Shown: one piece after another, positions 24,729-26,998 of the stretch
How the letters are laid out: every line of letters starts with the position of its first letter
How positions within the stretch are numbered: position 1 is the stretch's first letter
IMG/VR virus record: IMGVR_UViG_3300043786_000727
Coordinates: 1 to 29,264 of that record
Length of the DNA: 29,264 bases
Reading direction: 5' to 3' (one strand)
Source of the DNA: a virus
The notes under the pieces: generated by a model
What the model was told of the DNA's origin: nothing
Databases searched by the model: none
The model's input: only the letters and a program-made list of their open reading frames with translations
Position numbers and translations under genes: made by a program

Positions 24729-25342
24729 AGTTCTTCCTCGCTTTCGCTTACCCATCTGCTGCCAGAGTGCTCACAGCTAAACTCTTGGCTAAATACCTTC
24801 CAGTCTGGCTTGGTGGGGAAATTCTTGGCAATAAATGAACCGCCATCCATCCACAGCACACGGTTATTGGGTTGGATAAAGTATTGTCCGTCACCCGCAA
24901 ACACATGGCCGCATTTGTGGCCAGCCGCCATTTCGCCATAGCCTCCAGAATGTTGTGGCCCCAAACACCAGTCCAGAGTGAACATGTATTGGGCCTTTTC
25001 CAGAGATTTGTCTTTCAACATGATGTTTGCCGCACGATTCTTGCAGTAGTCCAAGATGTTGACCGAGCAGTAATAACTCATGGAGTCCCACAACTGAATC
25101 CAGTCCAAGGGATAAAATGTTCCCCCAGTTTCATCTGTATGGAGATATTGGATGGGAACTCTGGCGTGTTGGGAGCCATATTCGGTCATAACGCTAAACA
25201 TTCCGCACCTTTGGGGTATTGAAGTGTAGGCAAAGACCTCTACAACAACTCTTTCTCTTGTGACGTTTGGCTCTAGGTCGTAAAAGAAACCCGTGTCCAA
25301 ATAGGCAAAGAAAAACGGAATGTTTACGTTAAGATAGTTCAT
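24698..25342 (-). CDS. Conserved phage protein of unknown function (214 aa)
   Basis: A 214-residue soluble protein (MNYLNVNIPFFFAYLDTGFF...). Recognisable segments: FYPLDWIQLWDSMSYYCSVNILDYCKN (~78-104), ANIMLKDKSLEKAQYMFTLDWC (~107-128), AAGHKCGHVF (~140-149), FIQPNNRVLWMDGGSF (~156-171). This combination occurs in a widespread family of unannotated phage proteins. There are several Cys and His residues but no known catalytic motif. It overlaps the lipoprotein start by 31 bases and the HTH gene stop by four (ATGA). Confidence 0.75.
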   Translation of the reverse strand: MNYLNVNIPFFFAYLDTGFFYDLEPNVTRERVVVEVFAYTSIPQRCGMFSVMTEYGSQHARVPIQYLHTDETGGTFYPLDWIQLWDSMSYYCSVNILDYCKNRAANIMLKDKSLEKAQYMFTLDWCLGPQHSGGYGEMAAGHKCGHVFAGDGQYFIQPNNRVLWMDGGSFIAKNFPTKPDWKVFSQEFSCEHSGSRWVSESEEELWFYDFKQQS

Positions 25343-25875
25343 TGATTGGCGATTTTTTTCAGAAGCTTGGTTTGTTTCTCTAGCAATTCTGTTTGATATT
25401 GCATGTCGGTTCGCTGTCTGCTGGCATCAAGCTGTCGATATGATTCTTCAAGCCTGCGCTGGGAATCGGCGTTCATCCGGTCAACAATCGCCCTTGTTTC
25501 ATCCGATGTGCTCCTTGAGCGGGAAATTGTTGCCGTTCCGCTGTAGTAGTTCGGAGAGGTGTTGCCATAGCCAGTGGAGTAAGAATATCCGCTGTAATTG
25601 ACGGTTTCTTGGGCATTGACGATGCCGCATGTGATCAACAACGCAGCCGCCGTGGCTTTGATTTTTTGACCAAGCGAATAACGCGCATAGCGTTTTCCGT
25701 TTTTGGTCACAATCTCCTTGTTGACAATGATTCCAGATCGTTTGATTTCGTTGATTCTGGAAGCCAGACGAAAACACTTAAAGCGGCTTAACGCTTCAAG
25801 CGGCGTGATGGATTTACCTTTAAGCAGGTAGTTGAGGATTTTAACGGTTTGACTAGGATTAGTGTGGTTTTTCAT
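25339..25875 (-). CDS. HTH protein fused to a signal-peptide/coiled-coil region
   Basis: A 178-residue protein with three distinct parts. Residues ~1-70 (NPSQTVKILNYLLKGKSITP...ARYSLGQ) form a phage helix-turn-helix domain of the HTH_39 type (KxGKSITPLEALxxFKCFRLASRI). Directly after it comes KIKATAAALLITCGIVNAQ (~71-89), which looks like a Sec signal peptide with an Ala-Gln cleavage site. Then a Tyr/Ser/Gly-rich stretch (YSGYSYSTGYGNTSPNYYSG) and a long charged coiled coil (RRLEESYRQLDASRQRTDMQ...) to the end. The HTH suggests DNA binding, the hydrophobic segment a membrane. ATG at 25875 is chosen; 25893 is possible. It precedes the leftward operon. Confidence 0.72.
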   Translation of the reverse strand: MKNHTNPSQTVKILNYLLKGKSITPLEALSRFKCFRLASRINEIKRSGIIVNKEIVTKNGKRYARYSLGQKIKATAAALLITCGIVNAQETVNYSGYSYSTGYGNTSPNYYSGTATISRSRSTSDETRAIVDRMNADSQRRLEESYRQLDASRQRTDMQYQTELLEKQTKLLKKIANQ

Positions 25876-25899
25876 ACGACTCAATAGACACATGTTAAC

Positions 25900-26598
25900 C
25901 GCACTCGTTCAATCTTTTTTTAAAAAATATCCGCACTCCCAAAGCGTCCTTTGGGCGAAACCTGTTAATTCAGTTCCATGTTGCGCGTGCAAGCAGAGGC
26001 GTTGGCGGAAAATGTAGCTACGGCTCAGGTCGCTCACGCAGGCGTATGCTCCTTCGGGAGCAGGAACGGTTCTGTTAGTCGTGCCCTCAATGACCGCAGC
26101 TAAAATTTGGAGGAGTCGGTGATCGAAACCGAGTCCGAGGGTATAGCCCTTCGTCGAATCCAAGTCTCTCCCCCTTAAGATTTAAAAGAACTAAAGGTTA
26201 TGGATATGGTTAAATGATTATTATCGATATTGTCAAACAATTTCTTATTACGCCGTATTATCGAAGTTTAATCCATCCAGATAGATTGCGATGCTCTTCA
26301 CACACTCCGCCCCCGCAAAGGGGCAAGAGTTTTGTAAAAAGTCGAAGTATTCATCCTTCCGAGATGAGTTGCTTCAGCCCTACCACCAACGTCTAGGCTC
26401 CGAGGCTGCCATTCTGATGACCTACTAACGTCGATGCACCCCACAGGGCATGTCCCTGTCGCTTTACCAGACTACTTCTGGATTACCAAGCTGGCGAGGC
26501 TTGGTTCGGATTTCCCAACGTTCGGCGGTTTTATCCTTGCATACCTGCGCTGGGTGTTCGGCTACAATATGTCAGACGCGCCGTGCGTCTTTGTGTAT
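25900..26598 (+). ncRNA. Candidate large structured non-coding RNA
   Basis: About 700 bases without a credible ORF, whereas the rest of the window is packed with genes. Many stable hairpins are visible: CCCAAAG/CTTTGGG (25939-25956), TTGC/GCAA (25981-25992), GCTCC-TTCG-GGAGC (26047-26062), AGC-TACG-GCT (26026-26035), GGAGTCGGT/ACCGAGTCC (26110-26134), AGGG/CCCT (26138-26151), GCCCC/GGGGC (26309-26324), ACAGGG/CCCTGT (26443-26459), CCAGA/TCTGG (26467-26481), CAAGC/GCTTG (26488-26504). The two UNCG tetraloops closed by C-G are only proper on the plus strand. Size, setting and absence of a gene recall GOLLD-type giant phage RNAs, but I cannot confirm homology. Strand uncertain. Confidence 0.45.
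26574..26598 (+). terminator. Terminator-like hairpin at the end of the RNA region
   Basis: AGACGC (26574-26579), a five-base loop and GCGTCT (26585-26590) form a 6-bp hairpin followed by TTGTGTATT. This suits termination of a rightward transcript just before the promoter at 26598. The T-rich tail is imperfect. Confidence 0.4.
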
Positions 26599-26627
26599 TG
26601 ACAGCGAAACCTATCTGGCGTTCAAAT
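26598..26627 (+). promoter_or_regulatory. Rightward promoter-like element for the early operon
   Basis: TTGACA (26598-26603), a 17-base spacer and TTCAAAT (26621-26627) lie 57 bases before the ATG at 26684. The -35 is perfect; the -10 is poor against TATAAT. The TTCAAAT box is the left arm of an inverted repeat (26619-26627 / 26645-26653). Confidence 0.5.
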
Positions 26628-26644
26628 AAAGTCAAACAAAAAAA

Positions 26645-26674
26645 ATTTGAACGAAACGCAAACACCCGTGTCAA
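26645..26674 (-). promoter_or_regulatory. Mirror-image leftward promoter-like element
   Basis: On the minus strand TTGACA (26674-26669), 17 bases and TTCAAAT (26651-26645) repeat the rightward element exactly about a centre at 26636. It would send a transcript left through the RNA region and toward the leftward operon. It may be a true promoter or half of a regulator-binding dyad. Confidence 0.45.
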
Positions 26675-26683
26675 AGTAATCGC

Positions 26684-26998
26684 ATGAAAGTCCATAAAGA
26701 ACAACTCAAAGAAATACTGGCCCAAGGCCCAGCATCAACCAACGAAATCGCCAAGCTCTTTAATTGCAGCTCAGGAGCCGTTTATTACGCAATCAAAAAA
26801 CTTGGATTGTATCAGGGGCGCAAGCCTTCGGTCAAAAGCCGCCAGCACCCATCAACACGAATCATCAAGGTCATTGCCGACATTATTAAATCAGAACCCA
26901 CGGAATCCATGGCGAACATTGCAAGGCGCAACAATTGCAGCCGCGAATACGTCTCGCAGATTTCGGGTCAACTTCGGACAGAGGGGGTGATCAAATGA
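26684..26998 (+). CDS. Two-HTH DNA-binding protein, probable early regulator
   Basis: A 104-residue protein with two HTH-like units: residues ~5-42 (EQLKEILAQGPASTNEIAKLFNCSSGAVYYAIKKLG) and ~60-100 (IIKVIADIIKSEPTESMANIARRNNCSREYVSQISG). The linker is basic (GRKPSVKSRQHPSTR). The pattern is that of a small winged/tri-helical regulator or terminase-like DNA-binding protein. It is the first gene of the rightward operon, directly downstream of the dyad control region, so autoregulation is plausible. No SD is seen. Its stop overlaps the next start (ATGA). Confidence 0.82.
   Translation: MKVHKEQLKEILAQGPASTNEIAKLFNCSSGAVYYAIKKLGLYQGRKPSVKSRQHPSTRIIKVIADIIKSEPTESMANIARRNNCSREYVSQISGQLRTEGVIK

Follow-up and report, generated by a model that had tools for sequence, protein, structure and literature searches.

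A minus-strand RNA locus of a tailed phage that combines a previously uncatalogued structured RNA, a TLD-only tmRNA and a conserved hairpin

Among the elaborate RNAs carried by phages, GOLLD RNAs lie near tRNA genes, at times hold tRNAs in a linker and in many cases exceed 800 nt, with GOLLD env-38 forming a multimeric nanocage, and ROOL RNAs of phages and prophages contain pseudoknots and are often found near tRNA islands, ROOL env-120 measuring 659 nt (PMC12286853). The other systems closest to the locus described here are tmRNAs that consist of little beyond the tRNA-like domain (TLD). In the tmRNA database papers, the "CDS-less" tmRNA of mycobacteriophage DS6A is tagged "TLD only", DS6A is the sole phage named with this form, and the tmRNA genes of Mallomonadaceae plastids are given as ~65 bp (PMC4131195, PMC11915505). 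Among 97,179 tmRNA sequences, nine entries are classed as "standard, no CDS" (PMC11915505). As relayed by the database papers, a molecule similar to TLD-only RNA inhibits tmRNA (Mao et al. 2009, via PMC4131195, PMC11915505).

Here we analyze the window, by which we mean the whole 29,264-nt stretch of IMG/VR virus record IMGVR_UViG_3300043786_000727, positions 1 to 29,264. Its RNA locus contains three modules: a core RNA, a TLD-only tmRNA and a hairpin, designated b, that together span ~590 nt. Each of the three modules is present, and each shows conservation of its RNA structure. Their coordinates are collected in Table 1.

Table 1. Features of the RNA locus and of related loci; positions refer to the window unless a locus is named
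Feature	Position	Strand	Basis or result
Promoter-like TTGACT-16-TAGGTT, upstream of core	26608..26635	-	By eye; TTGACT..TANNNT recognizable in aligned relatives
Core of the new structured RNA family, ~370 nt (approximate ends)	26230..26601	-	Homologues, covariation, no Rfam match
5' pseudoknot: H0 26585-26590 with 26574-26579; H1 loop 26580-26583 (CGGC) with 26559-26562 (GCCG)	26559..26590	-	
H2 (26549-26554 with 26514-26519), closing the near-invariant loop AGGUAUGCAAGGAUAAAACCGCCGAAC (26520-26546)	26514..26554	-	
Hairpin H4	26485..26505	-	5/20000 permutations as strong
Hairpin H5	26467..26481	-	0/20000 permutations as strong
Hairpin H6, ACAGGG/CCCUGU	26443..26459	-	0/20000 permutations as strong
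H7 (26428-26436 with 26384-26392)	26384..26436	-	0/20000 permutations as strong
TLD-only tmRNA, 67 nt, no tag frame, no pseudoknots, CCA not encoded	26108..26174	-	RF00023
Hairpin module b: closing stem AGCUGCGG/CCGUAGCU, conserved UCAUUGAGGG ... AGCGACCUGA, inner stem	26016..26102	-	
Winged helix-turn-helix protein gene (PF14090), after the RNA unit	25339..25893	-	Pfam domain
tRNA-Met(CAT) beside core	L193:5091-5165; L105:2571-2645; L121:2732-2807; L177:3756-3830		
TLD-only RNAs of Streptomyces phages BRock, LuckySocke, Alone3	L207:591-671; L208:601-681; L215:580-659		

A structured RNA locus on the minus strand

The interval between the frames at 25339-25893 (minus strand) and 26684-26998 (plus strand) is without a plausible gene, bearing out the preliminary description of ~800 bases free of genes. 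Rfam at gathering thresholds and ARAGORN gave zero matches across the window, ARAGORN calling no tRNA gene in it. Read on the minus strand, this stretch folds more stably than its dinucleotide shuffles (z = -3.3, n = 20 shuffles), and the plus-strand reading also beats such shuffles (z = -2.3, n = 20 shuffles). In hand-set registers of helices H7 and H10, G-U cells are present and A-C cells are absent, and on the strength of these wobble pairs and of the pairing energies of both readings, the RNA was assigned to the minus strand, overturning the plus-strand reading first proposed. The gene-free stretch is a structured RNA locus on the minus strand of a tailed phage.

Individual plus-strand elements of the preliminary description survive in part. 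Of two hairpins with UNCG loops, TGCTCC-TTCG-GGAGCA is found at 26047-26062, but 26026-26035 reads CAGGTCGCTC and is not a C(UNCG)G hairpin. The hairpin described as terminator-like at 26574-26590 likewise exists, but terminator-like sites occur at chance level (2 found, 1.3 expected), and on the minus strand exactly these bases form a stem of the conserved pseudoknot. Because a consensus promoter scan made no call at 26608..26635, the promoter listed in Table 1 is offered as a suggestion only. Elsewhere on the same phage contig, positions 1929-2834 of the minus strand encode a BspA-type leucine-rich repeat protein (PF13306, E = 1e-37).

The core RNA, its helices and its flanking modules

Pattern scans of IMG/VR identified ~35 distinct core loci. 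The nearest relative found, L066, shares conserved non-coding blocks with the window, and the terminase on its contig is 96% identical; across a broad range of related contigs, the block containing the box AGGUAUGCAAGGNUNAANCCGCCG recurs at this position. Core length is constant at 369-383 nt except in loci with one expanded hairpin, and H5 is enlarged by 70-100 nt in L087, L097, L105 and L135. In a search for the host, a core motif scan of GTDB representative genomes gave no match, and the known phages of INPHARED yielded neither a genuine core relative nor a relative of the terminase.

The covariance models of Rfam, including those of GOLLD and ROOL, gave no match to the core, whether at E values up to 10 (window and L121) or at E values up to 1 (L195, L190, L193 and L181). 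The families that the preliminary description had named for a check (GOLLD, ROOL, HEARO, tmRNA, RNase P) thus fall away for the core, tmRNA in its full form, even at E = 10. Because Rfam gives no match for the core, the second half of the original inference, a novel family as complex as GOLLD and ROOL, holds up, with the corrections that the core is ~370 nt long, that it lies on the opposite strand and that a TLD-only tmRNA beside it had been missed. Membership of the core in GOLLD or ROOL as a divergent representative is extremely improbable: like these RNAs, it is phage-borne and pseudoknotted, has tRNA genes nearby in a minority of homologues and adjoins a variable slot able to accommodate a tRNA (PMC12286853), but it is smaller, and permissive thresholds returned no Rfam match for the window or for four homologues chosen from diverse loci. 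The core is a previously uncatalogued, intricately folded structured RNA family.

To assess its helices, each was located by sequence anchors, and pairing between its own two strands was compared with pairing between strands swapped among loci. The permutation set comprised 12 clade representatives (11 for H5) and 20,000 permutations, and a larger set was also run; the shuffled and permuted controls ignore phylogeny, whereas slid controls keep relatedness. Eight helices, including those of the 5' pseudoknot, maintain their pairing by complementary changes around a near-invariant loop. In the pseudoknot, formed by H0 and H1, a hairpin loop pairs downstream. No permutation was as strong as the observed H1 pairing (0/20000), with H0 weaker (228/20000), and in L181, L177 and L121 both stems differ in sequence yet match. 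H2, examined in an ungapped alignment, has 88.1% of its cells paired, all 6 of its 6 pairs changed on both sides and a covariation of 0.709, compared with 0.254 for shuffled and at most 0.21 for slid controls, and again no permutation was as strong (0/20000). H7 has 94.7% of cells paired and a covariation of 0.530 (0.285 shuffled), and for H10 a single permutation in 20,000 equaled the observed strength. The covariation that the preliminary description had proposed to seek in homologues is therefore present, the named helices exceeding both shuffled and slid controls, and no conserved coding frame, the finding it had named as counting against an RNA, is open in all core homologues. Together, the covariation and the absence of a common reading frame uphold its claim of a large structured non-coding RNA.

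Two further analyses relied on unrefined alignments. When all pairs of columns in the unrefined MAFFT alignment were tested against a phylogenetic null, with low power because columns averaged 2 substitutions and helices were misaligned, one significant pair emerged, located outside the proposed helices. Along with the lack of phylogenetic correction in the permutations, this is the chief statistical caveat. From the raw alignment, RNAalifold predicted that the invariant loop pairs to the 3' strand of H6, a solution that was rejected because the local hairpin H6 covaries.

In most loci, hairpin b follows the core's box by ~450 nt, and its closing and inner stems each beat all 10000 strand-swapped permutations. 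The slot between core and b holds a TLD in the window and in L066, a changed TLD in L195, tRNA-Met in L193 and plain hairpins elsewhere. L086, L135, L169 and L180 carry a changed TLD, and b was not found there. In several loci, tRNA-Met(CAT) lies 305-661 nt upstream, and a minority of homologues have tRNA-Met no more than 700 nt away. Locus L181 contains b twice in tandem, and in L121, L145, L163 and L198 extra hairpin-like modules, which recur among loci in varied combinations, stand between b and the next gene, like insertable cassettes. Frames resembling HNH homing endonucleases by eye adjoin the RNA locus at L066:3257-3946 and, downstream of the core, in L194; a Pfam search of the L066 frame gave no match.

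The lengths of the matched stretches of b (42, 45, 63, 66 and 69) are all divisible by three, one frame of b gives IEG...SDL in the copies translated, and an 84-amino-acid frame is present at 25909-26163 on the minus strand, features that would fit a protein-coding function for the stretch or for its 3' part. Such a function is nevertheless very unlikely, as no core frame is open across the homologues and the conserved blocks of b hardly vary at third codon positions either. With third positions nearly fixed and both stems covarying, RNA constraint dominates in b.

The TLD-only tmRNA in the window and elsewhere

At permissive thresholds, RF00023 covers minus-strand positions 26174-26107 from end to end (41.7 bits, E = 6e-15), with 6 nt standing in for 312 model positions; the score lies below the Rfam gathering score of 47, and the match is not reported at gathering. 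The RNA has a 7-bp acceptor, GGGGGAG/CUCCUCC, that contains G3-U70, which confers alanine identity on tRNA-Ala and tmRNA, and is followed by A73. Its D-region is GGAUUCGAC, and its T-arm loop, UUCGAUC, fits UUCGANY and is thus a canonical T-loop. Between the two halves a short stem-loop replaces the tag and the pseudoknots, and the P2 stem forms 5 of 7 pairs in a fixed register. In L066, the TLD has a 6-nt T-loop and CGCAC in place of CGGAC, and the D-region and T-loop are altered in L195, L086, L135, L169 and L180; given these changes, conservation of the TLD among these phages is poor. The elements of the latter five loci (L086:643, L135:4151, L169:1336, L180:1660 on the reverse strand and L195:892) have GGUUCGAC, a T-arm loop UGCAAU and an intact 7-bp acceptor and lie within an open frame. 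Their sequences suggest a decayed or re-used TLD.

Scans of IMG/VR and of GTDB genomes, made by sequence pattern only, yielded 21 distinct, fully paired TLD-only sequences when that of the window is included; IMG/VR supplied 19 others and an Acidimicrobiaceae MAG the remaining one. Most matches of the first pattern were chance occurrences in coding sequence and were discarded, and L015, a first-pattern match that pairs only in a shifted register, was excluded. The distinct IMG/VR matches of the second pattern all have 7/7 acceptor and 5/5 T-stem pairs. Across the 21 sequences, for which full pairing was the condition for being counted, 147/147 acceptor pairs and 105/105 T-stem pairs form, and when the 3' strands were re-dealt among them at most 131 and 82 pairs, respectively, were obtained. 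Acceptor positions 1, 2, 3 (the G-U) and 7 do not vary, and covariation occurs at positions 4-6; G3-U70 and A73 are present in all 21.

These data bear on whether the TLD could be a functionless remnant of a host tmRNA gene, decaying or there by chance, or an attachment site, which we consider unlikely. Such an origin would be in keeping with its score below the Rfam gathering threshold, with the loss of the canonical T-loop in relatives and with the frequent integration of mobile elements in tmRNA genes (PMC11915505). However, every acceptor and T-stem pair is kept in the 21 distinct sequences, and a composition-shuffled control of 3.2 Mb gave zero TLD pattern matches. Moreover, the 5' and 3' halves are both retained, joined by a short stem-loop, which is unlike an attachment site and argues against a remnant of one.

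Unannotated TLD-only RNAs were also found in the tRNA arrays of the cultured Streptomyces phages BRock, LuckySocke and Alone3, and GiJojo gives a similar match. The TLD-only tmRNA of the Acidimicrobiaceae MAG (L201:220-300, minus strand, JAERSO010000156.1) may belong to a prophage or to a stray phage contig. On a viral contig, a Pistol ribozyme (50.7 bits; L026:5916-6012, minus strand) lies ~2.2 kb from a TLD-only tmRNA of that contig. Permuted two-piece tmRNAs account for the matches in Tunturi_3, Tunturi_4, Achromobacter JWDelta and Stenotrophomonas QDWS359, and a full tmRNA for that in Gordonia Boopy; none of the five is TLD-only. In Tunturiibacter phage Tunturi_4 (L209:218-565), an annotated RF-1 domain peptide chain release factor adjoins the two-piece tmRNA, so that two ribosome-rescue-type genes stand side by side. 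With more than 20 distinct sequences, the TLD-only tmRNA passes from the single phage named in the tmRNA database papers to a recurrent type of phage gene.

Proposed function and comparison with known systems

We favor, with moderate confidence, a model in which the minus-strand RNA unit combines the new core RNA, a TLD decoy and the conserved hairpin as follows. The 67-nt TLD would be cut from the transcript by tRNA-processing enzymes, receive CCA and be charged by alanyl-tRNA synthetase via G3-U70. SmpB with EF-Tu would then bind the charged TLD, which would compete with host tmRNA and so block trans-translation during infection; since the tag frame is absent, it would give no tagging. By analogy with the similar molecule whose inhibitory effect the database papers relay (PMC4131195, PMC11915505), the TLD probably lets the virus jam the host's rescue of stuck ribosomes. 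Some TLD-only RNAs are carried by phages of Streptomyces lividans, which makes decoy inhibition of trans-translation directly testable.

Less certainly, the core may serve as a stable trans-acting RNA scaffold, a role that has been proposed for GOLLD and ROOL, and an associated tRNA-like RNA may occupy the slot that separates the core from the 3' hairpin. A possible but doubtful alternative is that core and b form a long structured cis-acting 5' leader of the operon that runs leftwards from 25893, acting by attenuation, ligand or translation control, with the TLD as an inserted small RNA gene. In the loci examined, the core is followed by one and the same gene block, with orientation preserved, and in some relatives structured sequence nearly reaches the start codon of the next gene. 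The interval between core and gene is, however, freely variable, accommodating TLD, tRNA, extra modules or endonuclease-like frames; moreover, the core alone exceeds most leaders in length, and no riboswitch or leader of Rfam matches it. Because the sequence between core and gene varies so freely, a trans-acting scaffold is probably somewhat likelier for the core than a cis-acting leader.

A bolder form of the decoy and scaffold model, which we regard as rather improbable, holds that the locus exemplifies a novel kind of ornate phage RNA, perhaps multimeric, whose fold surrounds a tRNA-like cargo, a TLD or tRNA borne in its linker, and which, together with the TLD decoy, makes up a phage system for shutting down host trans-translation. 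If true, TLD-only decoys would be a widespread, overlooked counter-measure to ribosome rescue.

Compared with standard tmRNA (RF00023), the window TLD has in common the acceptor with G3-U70, GGAUUCGAC, CGGAC and the T-arm, but is without the pseudoknots and the tag frame, 6 nt taking the place of 312 positions. The tmRNAs of DS6A and the Mallomonadaceae likewise contain little beyond the tRNA-like domain and have no tag frame, and DS6A is likewise a phage; in contrast to both, the window TLD, which is likened to that of DS6A by description only, adjoins a large structured RNA and does not encode CCA. A jakobid mitochondrial tmRNA without the mRNA-like region was reportedly described by Jacob et al. 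in 2004 (cited in PMC11915505); judged by the title of that paper, it has likewise lost that region, but it is mitochondrial and not of a phage. The permuted two-piece phage tmRNAs (RF04321), such as those of Tunturi_3, Tunturi_4, JWDelta and QDWS359, are likewise tmRNA-derived phage RNAs, but they keep the tag part in a separate piece, whereas the halves of the window TLD stand in standard order around a short loop.

With GOLLD and ROOL, the locus has its setting in common, namely a slot for a TLD or tRNA between domains and, in a minority of homologues, tRNA genes nearby. The ~370-nt core is smaller than ROOL env-120 (659 nt) and many GOLLD RNAs (>800 nt) and matches no Rfam family. The likeness to GOLLD and ROOL is thus one of setting and complexity, not of sequence, and the core joins the few known ornate phage RNAs as an uncatalogued family in a similar setting.
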